Source of the DNA: an uncultured Ruminococcus sp.
Lineage (GTDB): Bacteria > Bacillota > Clostridia > Oscillospirales > Ruminococcaceae
Direction: 5' to 3'
Length of the DNA: 53,542 bases
Assembly: GCA_902780695.1 (NCBI GenBank)
Contig: CACZGM010000013.1
Span: 1 to 53,542, forward strand
The position numbers and the translations under genes are program-made. Below the pieces are notes generated by a model. It searched no databases and had not been told where the DNA came from. It saw only the letters and a list, made by a program, of their open reading frames with translations. Numbering within the stretch: position 1 is the first letter of the stretch; every line of letters starts with the position of its first letter. Shown here piece by piece: positions 4,574 through 12,264 of this stretch.

Positions 4574-4615
4574 ATACCCGCAGACGTAGTTTTCACGTCT
4601 GCGGGTATTTTTATT
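4574..4615. terminator. Bidirectional terminator
   Basis: A 13-bp perfect stem, ATACCCGCAGACG at 4574-4586 with its complement at 4596-4608, is followed by a T-run. It lies between the convergent esterase and radical SAM genes. Confidence 0.9.
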
Positions 4616-5678
4616 TTCCGATAAAATGCTTCGTAAACAGTTCACGGTGTTCTTCATACAATTCCCCCGCTATCCGGTCACTGATTTCGATAAGCATACG
4701 CTCATAAGTACAGGTAAGCGGAGATACCCTGTTCTCGGCACCTGTTTCGAGCCTGTTCGTACAGCCGCAGGAATTTGTGCAGCGTCCGTTCAGTCCGCAT
4801 TCCCTGCACTCCTCCGGTGTGGACTGACGTTTGGATATTTCAATCTGCCGCTTTACGTCTATCCCGTCGAACACATTTCCTATATACCAGTCCTTATCAC
4901 CGACGAACTGCGTACACGGATATATATTGCCGTCCGTATCTATCGGCATCTGGCGGAAACCAAGGTGGCAGTGATCCGCGGTGTTCTTTTCCTTTATACA
5001 GTCACGGATCTTGGAATCGAACGGACTGAAATAAAAACGTGAACCGTTAACGAGAATATCGCAGTAGAACCCGGCTGTCTTTTCAAGTTCCCCACGCAGA
5101 ATTTCCATATCTTTATCGGTCCATTTTACACGGCTGCCATAGGCGATAGTCGATATGATACGACGAAATCCGAGTGAATACAGAAATCTCACGGACTCGA
5201 AATAACTGCTCACAGCAAACGGAGCTATGGTCATCATAGCGTATGCGTTCGGGATATAAGAAAGCAGCAGCGTTGCCTTTTCCGAGACAACGTCAAGCGT
5301 TCCTCCGCCGCTCTTGAAGCAGCGCGACTTGTCCTGCAGCAGCCCGTCGAATGAAAGACCGATCATCATTCCTACAGCGCGGGCGCGTTCAAGAAACCGT
5401 TCGTCCAGTAAAGTCCCGTTTGTCGTCATTTTGTAGTTCGCGTTCTTTCCGGTTCCAGCGGAAAGCTCCGTACAACGGTCTATGCACTTGTAGATCAGAT
5501 CTTTTTCAAGCAGAGGTTCACCGCCGAAAAAGCAGAAACCCGCGCTCTTCCCGCGTGAAAAAGCAAGTTCACAAGCAGCATACAGTACATCTTCAGACAT
5601 ACGTTTTTCGCTCTTGGGATTCGGGCAGTAAACACAGTCAAGATTGCATCGTTCAGTAAGGTGAAGCGTAAAGTTCAT
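4611..5678 (-). CDS. Radical SAM/SPASM peptide- or protein-modifying enzyme
   Basis: A 355-residue radical SAM protein with the CxxxCxxC cluster motif (Cys11, Cys15, Cys18 in ERCNLDCVYC), GGEP at about 68, and a C-terminal SPASM region. That region has CHLGF...DTDGNIYPC, CRECGLNGRC, NSCGC and a final Cys near residue 325, which would bind auxiliary iron-sulfur clusters. SPASM enzymes modify peptide or protein substrates by thioether or C-C cross-linking, or mature sulfatases. The frame extends upstream, but the ATG at 5678 is chosen because it overlaps the preceding stop (TAATG). That makes it tightly coupled to the repeat lipoprotein, its likely substrate. I see no sulfatase here. The 'substrate' assignment is inference from coupling and repeat motifs. 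Confidence 0.85.
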   Translation of the reverse strand: MNFTLHLTERCNLDCVYCPNPKSEKRMSEDVLYAACELAFSRGKSAGFCFFGGEPLLEKDLIYKCIDRCTELSAGTGKNANYKMTTNGTLLDERFLERARAVGMMIGLSFDGLLQDKSRCFKSGGGTLDVVSEKATLLLSYIPNAYAMMTIAPFAVSSYFESVRFLYSLGFRRIISTIAYGSRVKWTDKDMEILRGELEKTAGFYCDILVNGSRFYFSPFDSKIRDCIKEKNTADHCHLGFRQMPIDTDGNIYPCTQFVGDKDWYIGNVFDGIDVKRQIEISKRQSTPEECRECGLNGRCTNSCGCTNRLETGAENRVSPLTCTYERMLIEISDRIAGELYEEHRELFTKHFIGK

Positions 5679-6763
5679 TATACCAACCCTTCTGTGATAA
5701 GAGCCTTGAACATCTCCACACAAACGTCGGGAGTTTCAATATTATATGCGTAGTTATATGCGAATTCAAACGAATCGAAGACGATAATGACAGCCTTTAC
5801 CTTCTGCCCGTTAAGCTCCATTCCTCTCATATAAACATGATCGGCGAGCTTTTCGTTTTTTTGAAGATCAAGCGCTTTATAAGCGTTTGTTCCTTTCTCG
5901 GCAAATGTGATATAAATTGATGATTTGCTGTTTTCCGACGTTAACAGGTATCTTGCATTTATGACAGTATTTCCGTCATTCATAAGATATTCCATATCGT
6001 TCGGCTCATAGCGGTCTATTCTTTCAAGCTGACATGAGATCTCTGTGTCTTTGAAAGCCCTGGTACACTCGTCGGCAAGTGAATTTTCATATCTGTTCGC
6101 GAGGATATAATCGTCCGGTATTTCTTCCTCATCACCTTCAAACGGAGCCGCAACATCACCTTCAAGCTCAATGATCTCATCGTCCGTGTCAACAGGTTCG
6201 GGAACATCTCCGGCAAGCTGGCAGTCATCATCGGTATATGCCGGAACAATACCAACTGGGTCAAGACTGTCATATTCATCTTCGTCAACGGCAGGCTCGC
6301 CTTCAAGCATGAAATCTTCGGTTATTTCCACTTCCGTGGGCGCAGGAGTTGTCGTTGAAGTTACTGTCGTTGCCACAGCCGCAGTTGTGGTGGCAGTCAC
6401 AGCAACAGCAGTAAAAAGTGCCGGATCGTCTTTGGTTTGCATAGTTTCATTTATAACTGCAACATCACCTGCAAGCTCTGCTTCTTCAATAGAGCTGAAC
6501 GGAGTGGTCATCTCTGTCGTAGTAGTTGTTGTGCTTTTGGACATTGCTGCCGCGGCGGTTGTTGTATCGGCTGCTGAAGCCTCGGTACAGGCAGGCGCAC
6601 CCGCTCCTGCTCTGTCGGATTCAAATGTTGCAGCGGCACCGCTTGTCTGTAGTCCGCCCTCAACACAGCCGGACAAAGATGCGGTCGCTGTTAAAAGGGC
6701 AGCCAGTTTTATCGCATATTCTGGTCTTTTATAGTTTTTTACCGGTGATATCTTCATTTTCAT
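5678..6763 (-). CDS. Repeat-bearing lipoprotein, candidate radical SAM substrate
   Basis: A 361-residue lipoprotein with a basic N-terminus, hydrophobic segment and lipobox SLSGC (Cys33). Residues 40-145 are a low-complexity Ala/Thr spacer. Between about 95 and 205 a short acidic motif of the form x-L-[AE]-G-[DE]-[VP] occurs four times: ELAGDV at 96, MLEGEP at 152, QLAGDV at 182, ELEGDV at 199. These are separated by Asp/Glu-rich stretches. Residues 220-361 form a compact mixed domain I do not recognise. Its stop overlaps the start of the radical SAM/SPASM enzyme. Repeated core-like motifs next to a SPASM maturase are what one expects of a modified protein, but modification is not shown. It may alternatively only be partnered structurally. 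Confidence 0.75.
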   Translation of the reverse strand: MKMKISPVKNYKRPEYAIKLAALLTATASLSGCVEGGLQTSGAAATFESDRAGAGAPACTEASAADTTTAAAAMSKSTTTTTTEMTTPFSSIEEAELAGDVAVINETMQTKDDPALFTAVAVTATTTAAVATTVTSTTTPAPTEVEITEDFMLEGEPAVDEDEYDSLDPVGIVPAYTDDDCQLAGDVPEPVDTDDEIIELEGDVAAPFEGDEEEIPDDYILANRYENSLADECTRAFKDTEISCQLERIDRYEPNDMEYLMNDGNTVINARYLLTSENSKSSIYITFAEKGTNAYKALDLQKNEKLADHVYMRGMELNGQKVKAVIIVFDSFEFAYNYAYNIETPDVCVEMFKALITEGLV

Positions 6764-6889: not shown

Positions 6890-7207
6890 TCACTGCAATC
6901 CGACAGTTCTGTTCACTGCCATTGAAAACGCAATTCCCTGTCCCGCCGTCCCGAGTCCGGCAGACTTGTACACAGCTTCGAGCACTGCATCCTTGATATC
7001 TTTCGGGACAAGTATCATAAGCACTTCCTTGTCGGGGTGAATGATTATTCCGAATTTTTCCTCGGCTTCCTTGCCGGCGGTGCCTCTTGCTCTTATTACC
7101 GTACCGCCTCTTGCTCCGGCTTCTCTTGCCGCGTCCATGACAGTCTCGGAAAAACCTGAATTTATGATACAGAATATCACTTCATACCCTTTTTCGTTTT
7201 CACTCAT
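6890..7207 (-). CDS. PII-family signalling protein
   Basis: A 105-residue protein that reads as a PII-fold regulator: an N-terminal beta strand (YEVIFCIIN), the AREAGARGGTVIRARGT turn, a short T-loop region around EEKFGIIIHPDKE, and the C-terminal strand GQGIAFSMAVNRTVGL. PII proteins are trimers that sense nucleotides or metabolites and gate membrane proteins. The ATG at 7207 follows GGGGGAG one base after the previous stop, in preference to an earlier in-frame ATG that overlaps the upstream gene. It is the last gene of a DUF1538/PII-like operon, so the likely partner is that membrane protein. The canonical GlnB uridylylation-loop sequence is not obvious. Confidence 0.8.
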   Translation of the reverse strand: MSENEKGYEVIFCIINSGFSETVMDAAREAGARGGTVIRARGTAGKEAEEKFGIIIHPDKEVLMILVPKDIKDAVLEAVYKSAGLGTAGQGIAFSMAVNRTVGLQ

Positions 7208-7208
7208 T

Positions 7209-7649
7209 TCATTCTCCCCCATTCAAAGAGCTTTCTGCATTACACAGGAATGTATAGACAGATGTTCCTATCATGCTTGTGAAAGGAACAGACACCGAAA
7301 CTCCCTTTCCGTTCCTGACAGTCCGGAATTTTGTTTCGAGAGTATAGGTTAGCTCGTCGAGCCGGTCTTCCCTCACAACACTGAATATCACAGTCTTATC
7401 GGTATCTGTAATACCGAGATAGTCCAGTATCTCTGCTTTTGCGGTACCATGTGCCGGTGCCGAAAACTGAAAATTGACCTCAAATGACTGGATAATATCC
7501 ATATAGAATTCAGCCTTGCTCTTTTCTACTATCGTTATCAGCAATTCAAGCGCGAACGGTGCCTGTGAGCCTGTTTTTTCGGGCAGCTGCACCCGCTTTT
7601 CCGCTTTTATCTGCGGCAGTTCGTTCTTTATTTTACCCCAGAATGGCAT
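7209..7649 (-). CDS. PII-like companion protein
   Basis: A 146-residue protein with a basic N-terminus, then an LELLITIVEKSKAEFY beta-alpha unit, a central VIFSVVREDRLDELTYTLETKF unit and a C-terminal stretch PFTSMIGTSVYTFL. That order resembles a diverged PII fold, with FRTVRNGKGVSVSVPF as the last strands. This is a structural reading, not a family match. The ATG at 7649 is used because AGAGGTGAG precedes it; that ribosome site spans the stop of the DUF1538 gene. It lies between the transporter-like gene and a clearer PII gene, suggesting that the two regulators form mixed or alternative complexes on the same membrane protein. Confidence 0.6.
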   Translation of the reverse strand: MPFWGKIKNELPQIKAEKRVQLPEKTGSQAPFALELLITIVEKSKAEFYMDIIQSFEVNFQFSAPAHGTAKAEILDYLGITDTDKTVIFSVVREDRLDELTYTLETKFRTVRNGKGVSVSVPFTSMIGTSVYTFLCNAESSLNGGE

Positions 7650-7654
7650 CGTTC

Positions 7655-9187
7655 TCACCTCTTGTCAAAATAAATTATCTGCGCATCGTCCGCAGACAGT
7701 ATTCTCGCCATTGCAATGCGCTTACGCATTCTCTCCGCCATAACCGCCTTGAATCCGAGAGACTGTATCGCGATAAGCGGAGTCATAGCTACCATTGCGA
7801 CAATACCGAATGCGGTATACATTATGTCGCCTGTTCCGCGAAGAGCTTCACAGGCTCCGATAGCCATCGGAAGTATAAAGCTCGATGTGAGAGGTCCGCT
7901 TGCAACCCCTCCGGAATCGAACGCGATAGCCGTGTACATCTTCGGTACGAAGAATGAGAGCCCGAGAGAGATGAGATATCCAGGTATCAGATAATAAAGC
8001 AGCGAAAAACCAAATATAATGCGGATTATCGAAAGACCAATGGAAACACCCACGCCGACCGAAAGCGCTGCTGTCATTTCTTTTTTCGTTACCGTACCGC
8101 CGGTTATATCCTCGACCTGCCGGTTAAGAACGTGAACGGCAGGCTCCGCGAGAACAGTAACCATACCGATAAAAAACGCAAACAGTATAAGCGGCAGTTT
8201 CCCGCCTTCCGCAAGCTCAACACCGATCTTGAAGCCTATCGGCATAAATCCTACCGCAACTGAAGTGAGGAATATGACAAGTCCCACAAATGTATAGACA
8301 ATACCGACGAGTATCTGCACCAGCTTTTTCATCGGGAGTTTGAGTATCAGCACCTGCAGAATGCCGAATGAAACCATTATAAGCAGCAGCGACCTTCCGA
8401 CGTCAAGCACGGTCTCAAAAACGGTATCCAGAAACCCTTCCCCGAGATTGGCATCTATGGAGTAATCCGGAAGCGAGTAGTTCAGATTGCCTTTTGCGGT
8501 CAGCATAAGTATCAGTACAGCAATTATCGGTCCCACGGAGCACAGCGCGATAAGTCCGAAGCTGTTCTCTCCCGCGTTTCTGCCGCCTATCGTCATTGCG
8601 ATTCCGACACCGAGCGCCATTATGAACGGAACGGTTATTGGGCCGGTCGTCACGCCGCCGGAGTCAAACGCGAGCGGGAAAAATTCACTTTTGCCGTTTT
8701 CAAGCAGCAATGCTCCTACCGCAAACAGCATCAGATAGAAATACAAAAGAAACGGTGTCAGATCCTTGCGGAAAACAATCTTCATTACTGCCGTCAGCAG
8801 GAAAGCTCCCACACCTACACATACTGCTCCGATAAGCAGCGTGGGCTCTATAAGAGCACTCACCTGATCTGCCAGTACCGAAAGATCAGGCTCCGCGACT
8901 GTGATAAGCAGTCCCATAACGAAGCATACCGCAAACAATACCCCTATTTTTCTCGATTTAGTCAGACCCTCTCCAACATACTCGCCCATGGGTGTCATAG
9001 CCCTATCAGCACCGAGGTTGAAAAGTGCTATTCCAAGTATCAGAAAAGCGGCTGAAACACCGAAAACTACCGTTTCCTTGAAAGTAAGATCGACGAGCGG
9101 AGTCAATGTGATCAGTATTACAATCAGCGTTATGGGTACAACCGATACGACGGCTTCCCATATCTTGACAAGAAGAGCTTTTATCAT
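7655..9187 (-). CDS. DUF1538 integral membrane protein (internally duplicated)
   Basis: A 510-residue polytopic membrane protein with roughly 12-14 hydrophobic segments, built from two homologous halves. The signature FDSGGVTTGPITVPFIMALGVG in the first half matches FDSGGVASGPLTSSFILPMAIG in the second. The halves also share a VAEPxxxVL segment (TVAEPDLSVLADQV and VLAEPAVHVLNRQV). This is the inverted- or tandem-repeat layout of secondary transporters. The family is DUF1538, with no settled substrate known to me. Two PII-like proteins follow directly in the operon, implying that its activity is gated by cell metabolite or nucleotide state. A TTGATT-17-TATAAT promoter lies upstream with a leader of about 107 bases. 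Confidence 0.85.
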   Translation of the reverse strand: MIKALLVKIWEAVVSVVPITLIVILITLTPLVDLTFKETVVFGVSAAFLILGIALFNLGADRAMTPMGEYVGEGLTKSRKIGVLFAVCFVMGLLITVAEPDLSVLADQVSALIEPTLLIGAVCVGVGAFLLTAVMKIVFRKDLTPFLLYFYLMLFAVGALLLENGKSEFFPLAFDSGGVTTGPITVPFIMALGVGIAMTIGGRNAGENSFGLIALCSVGPIIAVLILMLTAKGNLNYSLPDYSIDANLGEGFLDTVFETVLDVGRSLLLIMVSFGILQVLILKLPMKKLVQILVGIVYTFVGLVIFLTSVAVGFMPIGFKIGVELAEGGKLPLILFAFFIGMVTVLAEPAVHVLNRQVEDITGGTVTKKEMTAALSVGVGVSIGLSIIRIIFGFSLLYYLIPGYLISLGLSFFVPKMYTAIAFDSGGVASGPLTSSFILPMAIGACEALRGTGDIMYTAFGIVAMVAMTPLIAIQSLGFKAVMAERMRKRIAMARILSADDAQIIYFDKR

Positions 9188-9300
9188 GAATTTTCCTCGT
9201 TATCTATCTGAATACCGGTTCATTCACAAAACCGGATTTATATTACGATCCCGCATAAAATGATGTTGAAAACTATTACGACGTACACTGTATTTTAATT

Positions 9301-9329
9301 ATTATAACATAATCACGGTATAAAATCAA
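9301..9329 (-). promoter_or_regulatory. Promoter of the DUF1538-PII operon
   Basis: Minus strand: TTGATT (9324-9329), 17-base spacer, TATAAT (9301-9306). The leader also contains a CCGGTT/AACCGG hairpin near 9213-9233, which could be regulatory. Confidence 0.75.
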
Positions 9330-9424
9330 GTCTTTGCGTTCAATACACAGAATAACTCCTTCCGGCTTATACTTTGGGTTTTCTCGGACATTCGTCTGTC
9401 GGCAAATAAAGCGTAATAAAAAAC

Positions 9425-9478
9425 AACCCGCCTATGCAAGACCATAGGCGGATTCGCCGCGGGGCGTTCCCCCGCAAT
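9425..9478 (-). repeat. Tandem terminator-like unit, distal copy
   Basis: About 52 bases nearly identical to 9529-9580. Read on the minus strand, a GCGGGG/CCCCGC hairpin precedes a CCGCCTATG/CATAGGCGG hairpin and a T-rich tract. It lies downstream of the GH5 gene ending at 9586. Between 9330 and 9425 I see nothing else. Confidence 0.7.
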
Positions 9479-9528
9479 AGAAAAAGATAGTTTAATTATC
9501 CGAAATCTATATAATACGGGCGAAAAAT

Positions 9529-9580
9529 AACCCGCCCATGCAAGACCATAGGCGGATTCGCAGCGGGGCGTACCCCGCAT
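9529..9580 (-). terminator. Tandem terminator-like unit, proximal copy
   Basis: Begins just after the GH5 stop. Minus-strand order is a GCGGGG/CCCCGC hairpin, then a CCGCCTATG stem pairing with CATGGGCGG, then GTTATTTTT. The stem differs from the distal copy by one T-A to T-G change that keeps pairing. Confidence 0.75.
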
Positions 9581-9585
9581 TGGTT

Positions 9586-10911
9586 TTATGCTGCATTGTC
9601 GGCTGACGGCTGTTCCTCGGCAGCGGAAGACTCGGCAGCTTCTGCTGCCGCTGATTCGGCAGCTTTCTTCTCTCGCGCTTCCTCACGCTGCTTTTCGTAT
9701 GCCGCAAGTTCCTCTGACATAACGTCCTCTCCCGCTTCTATGCGTTTAAGCCCGTTCATGAACTCCTCGTCCTTCATCGTGAAGAAATATCTGTCGTAGA
9801 AAAGTCCCTTTATATCCCACAGTACAGGACAGATTCCGCGCGTGTACATCGACTGCGCCGCGCAGAGATTAAATCTTCTGACGACGTCCGGCTCCTTGTT
9901 CCGTACAACTACACATCCGTATTCACCCATAATAACAGGAATGCCGTTGTCAACGAAACGGGTCTTGAGTTTATCCATATTGTCTTCCATTTCCTTGACT
10001 TCTTTTTCGTGTCCCCAGGTCTTTTTGGCTTTTCCCCAGCTTGCGTCCTTTTCGAGCAGACAGAACGTTGAAGGAGTATAATAATGCACGGAAACGGCAC
10101 ATCTTCCGGCAGGGTCTTCCGGCATAACAAACAGCTCGTCACAGGTAAGGTCAACATCGGTATTGTACCCCGCTATCAGCAGATGACGCTTTTCGTTGTT
10201 GCCGCCGCTCGCACGGACTATATCAACAAATTTCTGATTTATCTCGTTCAGAAGTGCGTATGACCGTTCTTTTTCTTCTCCCGCAGTGCCGCTGTATCTG
10301 TTCCAGATACTTTCCCAGCCGCCCTCTTCATTAAGGGACTCAAACATCAGCTTATCTCCGTATTTGCCGTAATAGCTGCAGAGCTGTTCCCAGATGCGGG
10401 TGTACTTCTTCATACACTCTTCCTTTTCTGTCGGGAACTTCTCCCACCAGCCGCCGTCCCAGTGAATGTTCATTATAACGTAAAGACCGCTGTCAACCGC
10501 CCAGCCGGTCACTTCATCAATTCTCGCAAGAAGCTCGGGGCTTATGGTGTAATCATCAGCCATAAGATTTGACCACGCAACAGGCAGACGCATAACGCCG
10601 AATCCCGCATCAGCGTATCCCTGTATGAGCGGCTGCGTAACAACGGGACTGCCCCACATCGTCTCAAAGGACTGTACGGTAGTACCCGCACCGCCTGTCG
10701 CCTCAAATGTGTTGCCGAGGTTTATGCCCATTCCCATATCCCTGACGATCTCCTGTGTGGTCATATCGCGCATTTCACCAAGAGATACAACAGGAGTCTG
10801 CTCGGTCTCCGCCTGTGTACCGTCAGCGGGTGCCGTCGTATTGCCTCCGCACGCGGAAACAAGGCACATTGCAGCAGCAAGAAGTGCTGCTGCCGTTTTT
10901 CTGAATTTCAT
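9586..10911 (-). CDS. GH5 family glycoside hydrolase lipoprotein with charged C-terminal tail
   Basis: A 441-residue family 5 hydrolase. The signal ends in a lipobox at Cys21; a Thr-rich linker leads to a barrel starting near 45. It has GINLGNTFEA (62-71), VMRLPVAW (106-113), NIHWDGGWW (148-156), acid/base Glu195 in ESLNEEGG and nucleophile Glu330 in IMGEYG. It replaces the usual Asn-Glu-Pro with Asn-Glu-Glu and has more Trp near the active site than the GH5 at 2.1 kb, so specificity probably differs. Residues from about 390 form an Ala/Glu-rich, likely helical or disordered tail. The ATG at 10911 (AAAGGAGAT upstream) is preferred over one at 10929. It is the second gene after GH43. Confidence 0.9.
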   Translation of the reverse strand: MKFRKTAAALLAAAMCLVSACGGNTTAPADGTQAETEQTPVVSLGEMRDMTTQEIVRDMGMGINLGNTFEATGGAGTTVQSFETMWGSPVVTQPLIQGYADAGFGVMRLPVAWSNLMADDYTISPELLARIDEVTGWAVDSGLYVIMNIHWDGGWWEKFPTEKEECMKKYTRIWEQLCSYYGKYGDKLMFESLNEEGGWESIWNRYSGTAGEEKERSYALLNEINQKFVDIVRASGGNNEKRHLLIAGYNTDVDLTCDELFVMPEDPAGRCAVSVHYYTPSTFCLLEKDASWGKAKKTWGHEKEVKEMEDNMDKLKTRFVDNGIPVIMGEYGCVVVRNKEPDVVRRFNLCAAQSMYTRGICPVLWDIKGLFYDRYFFTMKDEEFMNGLKRIEAGEDVMSEELAAYEKQREEAREKKAAESAAAEAAESSAAEEQPSADNAA

Positions 10912-10925
10912 ATCTTTATCTCCTT

Positions 10926-12233
10926 TCATTTTACAAACACGAATTCTTCAAGCTCAAACAGCATTCTTCCGGCAAACATATCCTTTGCCCAGCCAGTATA
11001 AGCACTTTCCGCTTTCAGATATACAGCGTGTCTGCCCTTTATTGCCGGAAGAGCAGCCGAAACGATGCCGCTGTTTGCATCAAATACCGCTTCACCTATC
11101 GGCTCTGAGTCGTCCGAGTCAATATATACGAGTATTTTTCCGCGGCATCCTGTTCCGCGCAGTTTCAGTTTTATCGAATACGGATCGTTATCGTCGCCGA
11201 AATCGTAATATTTCCAGCCCATAACGGCTCCGTCTGTGATTTTAGTTATAACGCGGTCAAAGATATTCAGTTCCGTAATGAAGCAGCCGTTTCTGAGAAC
11301 ACACGCAGTATCGGCTTTTGTAACGGCAAACGGGTTCAGACTGTCCTCGAATCCGAGAGAAGTCATTTCTACCTGCGGTATAGTTCCGTCCGGAAGTATC
11401 TCTATCTTCTCAACACATCCGCGGCGCGACATAATCGTACCGTTTGTCATTTTGTGATAGAATATGTAATACTGCCCGTTAATGCACATAACGGAACCGT
11501 GATCGTTTCCTCCGGGATAATCCACGGAATTGTCAATGATCGTGCCTTTATACTCGAACGGACCTGTCGGACTGTCGCTTATAGCGTAATCAAGACAGCT
11601 TCCCTTTTTGGGAGAGTATATAAGATAATATCTTCCGTTTATCTTTCGCGGCGAGCAGGCTTCAAAGAAGCAGTGCGGCTCTTCAACTGGGATTATGCCC
11701 TCTTTATATGTTCCGTCAATAACGGTGTACATATCACTGCCGTCGATCTCCGCCATATACGAACCGAGGTATCCGCAGTAAACATATACTCTGCCGTCGT
11801 CATCCACCAGCACGCCGGGATCTATGAATGTACCGTCATCATAGTGTTTCTCGATGTTGTACTTATACTGCGACAGGAGCCTGAATGGTCCTTCCGGGCG
11901 GTCACTTACGGCTACACAGCCCTTTGCTCCGACTATATATGCATACAGGTAGTATTTACCGTCCTTTTCAACTACGTCGGGAGCGTACAGTTCATTGTCC
12001 GTCCAGTCGGCATCTGACGGGTGTTCTCTGAAACCGCGTGTAGCAAACGCGGTACCGTGGCATATCCAGTTGTTAAGGTCGTTAAGCGGAGCCGACCACA
12101 CTTTCAGCTTATAGTCACAGAAAGCATCGCAGCCGGGGCGGTCGTGTGAACCGTAAACATATATCCGGTCACCGAACACACGGGGTTCGCCGTCCGGAAT
12201 ATATTCCCACTGCGGAAGATACGGATTTGGCAT
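10926..12233 (-). CDS. GH43 family glycoside hydrolase
   Basis: A 435-residue five-bladed propeller enzyme of family 43, typically an arabinofuranosidase or xylosidase. The N-terminal PDGEPRVFGDRIYVYGSHD holds the candidate catalytic base Asp. FIDPGVLVDDDGRVYVY carries the pKa-modulating Asp, and FEACSPRKINGRYYLIY the acid Glu. DHGSVMCINGQYYIFYH is the calcium/His blade. Residues after about 330 form a beta-rich C-terminal domain. There is no signal peptide, so it is probably cytoplasmic, acting on imported oligosaccharides. The ATG at 12233 is chosen over a TTG at 12248 because TTGGAGG is the ribosome site. It is the first gene of a two-gene unit with GH5. Confidence 0.9.
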   Translation of the reverse strand: MPNPYLPQWEYIPDGEPRVFGDRIYVYGSHDRPGCDAFCDYKLKVWSAPLNDLNNWICHGTAFATRGFREHPSDADWTDNELYAPDVVEKDGKYYLYAYIVGAKGCVAVSDRPEGPFRLLSQYKYNIEKHYDDGTFIDPGVLVDDDGRVYVYCGYLGSYMAEIDGSDMYTVIDGTYKEGIIPVEEPHCFFEACSPRKINGRYYLIYSPKKGSCLDYAISDSPTGPFEYKGTIIDNSVDYPGGNDHGSVMCINGQYYIFYHKMTNGTIMSRRGCVEKIEILPDGTIPQVEMTSLGFEDSLNPFAVTKADTACVLRNGCFITELNIFDRVITKITDGAVMGWKYYDFGDDNDPYSIKLKLRGTGCRGKILVYIDSDDSEPIGEAVFDANSGIVSAALPAIKGRHAVYLKAESAYTGWAKDMFAGRMLFELEEFVFVK

Positions 12234-12264
12234 TTGATTTTCCTCCAAAACAATTCTTTTCTAT

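Follow-up and report, generated by a model that had tools for sequence, protein, structure and literature searches.

The window, a stretch of 53,542 nucleotides, encodes on its minus strand a lipoprotein and a radical SAM/SPASM enzyme that, in the reading we favour, probably act as ribosomal substrate and maturase: a leader at the N-terminus of the lipoprotein would recruit the enzyme, the repeats behind it would be modified in the cytoplasm, and signal peptidase II would then remove leader and signal. We further see about an even chance that the pair belongs to a radical-SAM family of RiPP-lipoproteins from Clostridia of the gut and rumen, with leader and signal fused so that signal peptidase II doubles as leader peptidase, with a SPASM enzyme that carries out a not yet described reaction on repeated Cys-free VELAGDVAV cores displayed on the surface, and with one recruitment element for otherwise unrelated cargo.

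All features of the pair lie on the minus strand. The lipoprotein gene, the putative substrate (361 aa), occupies positions 6763..5678 and the enzyme gene (355 aa, identified by its sequence and its Pfam and NCBIfam matches) positions 5678..4611. As the first-pass annotation had read it, the two genes overlap in a TAATG (5676..5680), where the lipoprotein stop and the enzyme ATG at 5678 have one base in common; this ATG is the enzyme start, and the TTG start at 5723 in the list of open reading frames is mechanical. The lipoprotein opens with a leader element at residues 1–17, MKMKISPVKNYKRPEYA (6713..6763), and continues into a hydrophobic signal stretch, read by eye, and a lipobox that ends at Cys33 (6665..6712). 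An Ala/Thr-rich stretch of approximate limits (6479..6664), not general in relatives, leads to four cores: AELAGDVAV (Leu97, 6455..6481), FMLEGEPAV (Leu153, 6287..6313), CQLAGDVPE (Leu183, 6197..6223) and IELEGDVAA (Leu200, 6146..6172). The last part of the protein is an alpha/beta domain (5681..6130) that comparison finds in few relatives. The whole lipoprotein matched no family in searches of Pfam (E ≤ 0.1) and NCBIfam (E ≤ 1). The AlphaFold2 model of the C-terminal domain has a mean pLDDT of 64.6 and no match at E ≤ 0.001 in a PDB fold search, and since the model is of low confidence and without such a match, we dropped the attempt to derive a function from this domain. Beside the pair, positions 6890-12248 hold two small genes, which we take to be PII-like, together with a DUF1538 membrane protein and glycoside hydrolases; this block is kept in four loci (the window, L048, L058 and L118) and is not family-wide.

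A pattern-based scan of a collection of species genomes yielded 137 relatives, of which the best 80 were analysed. The titles of these 80 name Clostridia, among them Ruminococcus, Saccharofermentans, Oscillospiraceae and Lachnospiraceae, and many point to a sample of rumen, gut or faeces; in some the habitat is not given. In 73 of the 80 loci a leader lipoprotein stands directly upstream of the enzyme; the last lipoprotein stop lies within 9 bases of the enzyme start in 50 of the 73, the genes overlap in 25, and the largest gap is 214 bases. Among the seven other loci, four (L073, L094, L101 and L107) have the enzyme start at most 151 bases from the locus edge, and three (L081, L118 and L137) have an enzyme away from contig edges with no leader lipoprotein; L118 belongs to genome G002, which is 98% complete. 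Adding the window, L048, L053, L055 and L056 gave a set of 85 loci, in which a leader profile recognized 116 lipoproteins, spread over 76 loci. A single one stands in 48 of these, two in 19, three in 7, and four and five in one locus each. The seed of this profile consisted of 37 leaders taken from the loci in which leaders were later counted, and the genome searches described below are the sole outside control. The five tandem leader lipoproteins that share one enzyme are those of L096 (6373-7993), some carrying only a degenerate core such as TAGLIAIDLP. Relatives are mostly small, with a median length of 115 aa and 82 of the 116 under 150 aa. The idea that a large surface lipoprotein on an Ala/Thr stalk is the target thus describes the window protein but not most of its relatives, among which so long a protein, with Ala/Thr stretch and C-terminal domain, is the exception. 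Besides the enzyme and the lipoproteins, the commonest neighbour cluster occurs in 9 of the 85 loci (counting ORFs of at least 80 aa, with flanks of unequal length), and genes for a protease or an exporter are not a general feature of them. The lack of a general neighbour fits use of the general lipoprotein route; since only the enzyme and the lipoproteins are general, we also dropped any derivation of function from neighbours.

The conserved leader, which the first-pass annotation does not mention, is the strongest evidence in this analysis. Removing 11 near-identical sequences from the 116 leader proteins left an alignment of 105 rows (A2), and removing from it three proteins with a repeated leader and two with a mis-set start (L078:5692 and L133:7058) left 100 rows (A3); the two mis-started proteins remain in the core, Cys/length and core-consensus counts given here. 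The consensus of A3 is MKIxPxKxYKKPxYAxGLAAxxxAxxxTGC, with an invariant Cys; the element MKIxPxKxYKKPxYA, common to relatives, opens the lipoprotein signal. The N-terminus of the lipoprotein is strongly constrained: across 40 relative pairs, which are not independent, dN/dS is 0.07 (dN 0.047) for residues 2-16 and 0.08 (dN 0.029) for the lipobox, against 0.25 (dN 0.085) for the hydrophobic part and 0.35 (dN 0.215) for the other mature residues. Dedicated constraint on the n-region of a signal is unusual, and the GH5 lipoproteins of the window and of L048, compared by eye only and unquantified, differ from each other in that region.

The four L[AE]G[DE] copies reported from the window alone are there, with the preceding residue at 96, 152, 182 and 199 and the Leu at 97, 153, 183 and 200, and four copies never came up when the mature part was shuffled 20,000 times with its composition kept (shuffle mean 0.05). 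In the 116 mature lipoproteins, which include near-identical rows and whose core sites are therefore not independent, the pattern [LY][AED]G[DEG][VIATLMPS] occurs 200 times, compared with a mean of 4.5 and a maximum of 11 in 200 shuffles. A slightly wider pattern, giving 299 sites, has the consensus V-E-L-A-G-D-V-A-V around a fixed Gly, with no Cys in it; the key residue is Leu in 79% and Tyr in 21%, the only two that the pattern admitted. Cores follow each other at a median spacing of 17 residues (commonest 16, interquartile range 14-29). A solenoid or leucine-rich reading of the repeats was rejected on this spread of spacing and on a leucine-rich match (PF23598, E=4.9e-6, below the cut-off) confined to one relative, the leader lipoprotein L071:5783-6778, which looks like leucine-rich repeats in its C-terminal part. 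The motif thus recurs among homologues in varying copy number, as conservation of the repeats would have it, but it is not universal, the broad core pattern being missing from 12 of the 116 leader proteins. Some core-less relatives end in variants such as ITAGIVS; the short leader lipoproteins of L066, L070, L072, L088 and L116 carry a terminal LIT[AD]GIVS variant without the usual Leu-x-Gly spacing.

These exceptions count against our reading and lend something to the idea that the enzyme acts on the lipoproteins outside the LxG cores, perhaps close to the lipobox or within the C-terminal domain, and that the repeats are an ordinary acidic spacer or a binding motif. The core Leu/Tyr and Gly are also only moderately constrained (dN/dS 0.25, dN 0.092), less variable than the rest of the mature part though clearly more variable than the leader, and the distant systems described below have other Gly-rich motifs and a larger domain. 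However, the core is the only recurrent element past the lipobox in most relatives, where C-terminal parts vary or are missing, and we consider a target outside the cores unlikely. Modification of the repeats by the neighbouring enzyme, the central proposal made from the window, stands as the best reading of the pairing, the leader and the repeats, with the modification itself putative.

The enzyme belongs to the radical SAM/SPASM peptide-maturase superfamily. It passes the Pfam cut-offs for both Radical_SAM and SPASM (PF13186), and the Cys sets noticed at first pass are confirmed: the CxxxCxxC comprises C11, C15 and C18 (5625..5648), and C237 and C323 bound the 7-Cys SPASM pattern (4710..4970). 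With the window included, 81 of 81 enzymes have the CxxxCxxC and 79 of 81 the 7-Cys pattern; an alignment of 78 enzymes shows no variation at the three Cys of the radical SAM motif or at eight C-terminal Cys, and the distant enzymes of L055, L056 and L169, outside this alignment, are by eye without some SPASM Cys. The closest solved protein by profile is 5wgg, which we take to be CteB, with anSME second. A structure model of the enzyme (pLDDT 89.8) matches the folds 5why/5wgg at TM 0.80-0.82, anSME at 0.78-0.81, ChlB at 0.75-0.76, SuiB at 0.60-0.65 and TigE (PDB 8vpo), whose substrate presumably also has repeats, at 0.64; the solved folds nearest to the enzyme are peptide maturases, in line with our reading. 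The profile alignment to 5wgg starts only at residue 99 of the window enzyme, so that the part that holds the leader-binding domain of CteB is absent here.

The proposed search of both proteins against NCBIfam thus left the lipoprotein without a family and gave the enzyme a best match below its cut-off: PapB (NF047865) at 184.3 bits, with ten relatives at 156.8-202.4 bits, against a cut-off of 340, and membership was rejected. This top match and the nearest solved fold, the thioether enzyme 5wgg/5why, would suit thioether formation from Cys to Asp/Glu on the lipoproteins, as in the best-scoring named relatives of the enzyme, and the window lipoprotein has some Cys, one of them beside core 3. 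However, the passages of PMC9413430 drawn on here have PapB acting on CX3D/E motifs; past the lipobox, Cys is missing from 37 of the 116 relatives, among them 33 of the 82 with fewer than 150 aa, and the core consensus is without Cys. Since the cores lack a conserved Cys, thioethers are unlikely as a general reaction, and we give this chemistry little chance. Aromatic residues or His are absent after residue 33 in 10 of the 116 relatives. That no Cys is conserved in the cores and that their key position holds either Leu or Tyr together argue for a change at the aliphatic, Gly or acidic residues of the cores, which we would favour over a thioether or an aromatic cyclophane.

To count leaders beyond the loci themselves, we used the leader profile, since whole-lipoprotein matches (14 of 60 genus genomes at E ≤ 0.01) are in several cases low-complexity or partial; the genus, family and order samples overlap. 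In the 60 genomes of the genus, the window's own genome included, the enzyme is found at E ≤ 1e-60 in 11, the other ten being 36-83% identical to the window enzyme; at E ≤ 1e-15 there are matches in 54, those beyond the 11 being distant relatives of 25-28% identity. The leader occurs at E ≤ 1e-10 in eight of the 60, all eight among the 11 with the enzyme, and in none of the 49 without it. The remaining three are G040, with two distant-type proteins in place of a strong leader match, and G002 and G003, where no leader match was found; the contig of G002 ends about 370 bases past the enzyme, and no recognizable lipoprotein stands beside the enzyme in L056 (G003). In G004 the enzyme is near the end of one contig and the leader protein near that of another, so their adjacency is not visible. 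In the family sample, 3 of 197 genomes have the enzyme (E ≤ 1e-50). The leader reaches E ≤ 1e-3 in 5 genomes, strongly in G000 and G245, which both have the enzyme, and weakly (1e-4 to 6e-4) in three that do not; in G135, the third enzyme genome, a distant-leader lipoprotein adjoins the enzyme. Weak matches (E 1e-4 to 5e-3) were left uncounted, at four places in the genus and three in the family sample. In the order sample the enzyme (E ≤ 1e-60) is found in 7 of 394 genomes and the leader at E ≤ 1e-6 in two, the window genome and G469, the latter match (E=5e-7) reading as a solute-binding lipoprotein and counted as chance. Apart from this unrelated protein, then, no strong leader was found in the sampled genomes without the enzyme, a result that goes against the objection, raised with the original proposal, that such lipoproteins might be widespread on their own.

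Five of the six other enzyme genomes of the order sample have distant-leader lipoproteins upstream, two or three in four of them, and in G300 one plus another cut by the contig end; in G264 (L172) the enzyme has no upstream leader lipoprotein. More distant enzymes adjoin lipoproteins with a related leader. In the distant pairs (L167-L171, L055 and L151) this leader lies 13-22 residues before the hydrophobic stretch, for example KKYAPPKYPTL...LLRKLPSRWQKN, and by eye shares with the window leader the element Y-x-x-P-x-[YIFL]-[AP], Pro replacing Tyr in L151; one of the two L055 proteins has no lipobox Cys. The second type, with its longer leader YxxPxYP...LLRKLPSRWQKN, was seen in L167-L171 (G282, G300, G404, G341 and G276) and L055 (G040). 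Its lipoproteins stand in tandem ahead of the related enzyme, have a Gly-rich HGxGxGS-like stretch and a C-terminal part that ends like RDFIEWLQGQGII; the four that were searched against Pfam and NCBIfam matched no family in either. In one of them, L168:705-1664, residues 284-319 at the C-terminus give a very weak PqqD match (E=0.051), probably by chance.

The enzymes without an adjoining leader lipoprotein (L081, L118, L137, G003 and G264) also count against our reading, and they would be expected if the two genes were merely co-transcribed, the enzyme having its target elsewhere and the N-terminus being an ordinary signal peptide inherited from one ancestor. Against this stand a pairing that is near-constant while its surroundings change, an N-terminal constraint as strong as that of the lipobox, the persistence of the leader in distant pairs where it is separated from the signal, and the absence of strong leaders from enzyme-less genus genomes; mere co-transcription is in our view quite improbable. 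That the hydrophobic stretch is no lipoprotein signal and the whole N-terminus a classical RiPP leader, with the Cys, invariant in 100 rows, as modification site, would suit the small size of most relatives, but a pattern [LVI][TS][GA]C after a basic n-region and a hydrophobic stretch reads, by eye, as a lipobox, the loci have no general protease or exporter gene, and the long forms carry extra domains, which makes this the most improbable of the readings considered.

In the mechanism that we propose, with the lipoprotein as ribosomal substrate, the enzyme made from the coupled next gene would bind the N-terminal leader around K-x-Y-x-x-P-x-Y-A. Still in the cytoplasm, it would modify the repeated cores, whose pattern is [VLI]-x-[LY]-x-G-x-[VATI]-x-[VI], aided by its SPASM clusters. 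Export would follow the general Sec/lipoprotein route, with lipidation of the Cys, and the cut of signal peptidase II before this Cys would take off leader and signal together, leaving the modified acidic repeats shown on the membrane. The basis of this scheme is the anatomy and conservation of the pair, from which we infer every biochemical step. If true, it would amount to a little-described way of displaying chemically altered peptides at the cell surface. A leader inside the signal would account for loci that need no protease or exporter gene, a radical-SAM family so built would widen the RiPP-lipoprotein class, and its many short, often Cys-free, repeat-bearing precursors would lend themselves to a mass-spectrometric reading of the radical reaction.

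The comparison with known systems begins with two families that the pair does not join. The suggestion of a radical SAM-target system named after Fibrobacter and Ruminococcus does not hold, since the window enzyme scores 24.9 bits with FibroRumin (TIGR04136) against a cut-off of 400. Membership in rSAM_w_lipo (TIGR04133, cut-off 425), whose members, going by the family name, presumably pair with a lipoprotein, was likewise rejected, the window enzyme being outside the seven matches at E ≤ 1 in its own genome; the partner lipoprotein model of that family is absent among the matches listed (25 of 33 weak families). The name shows that a radical SAM-lipoprotein pairing has been noticed before. 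Another radical SAM gene of the same genome, G000:C49:917-1921 (L156), scores 273.6 bits with TIGR04133, below the cut-off. In the literature searched, mostly listings, abstracts and passages, no paper came up that couples a radical SAM enzyme to lipoproteins of this kind.

PapB, the best-scoring curated family, with PapA and the related ranthipeptide maturases, is like the present pair in having a SPASM enzyme and several motif copies per substrate, but the motifs there are the Cys motifs CX3D/E, whereas the cores here are Cys-free and show no Cys-X3-Asp/Glu; the passages drawn on (PMC9413430) do not call PapA a lipoprotein. Closer in this respect, going by passages of PMC9062424, is TvgB, a radical SAM enzyme that makes cyclopropylglycine from Val in the TVGG repeats of TvgA, a Cys-free precursor with repeated aliphatic/Gly motifs. 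The repeat sequence and the gene neighbours differ from those here, and TvgB serves as a precedent, not as an assignment of chemistry.

The nearest published idea that we found is that of the DAG-RiPPs, MNIO-modified RiPP-lipoprotein hybrids (DybA/DybH and NedABC) described in a November 2025 preprint (PMC12636315), on the relevant passages of which the following comparison draws. There, too, a RiPP-type enzyme adjoins a precursor with a signal-peptidase-II signal (here read by eye), modification in the cytoplasm precedes lipoprotein processing (here proposed), and some of the cargo has repeated motifs or large domains. Leader-independent systems are thought there to be those most likely lipidated in this way, with recognition of a C-terminal motif, whereas the leader here is conserved and lies within the signal. 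The enzyme here is radical SAM/SPASM and not MNIO, the cores are without Cys, and the words "radical SAM" occur 0 times in the preprint text drawn on. Modification and lipidation have been demonstrated for the DAG-RiPPs (PMC12636315), whereas for the present pair, which would by analogy be their radical-SAM counterpart, both are proposed.
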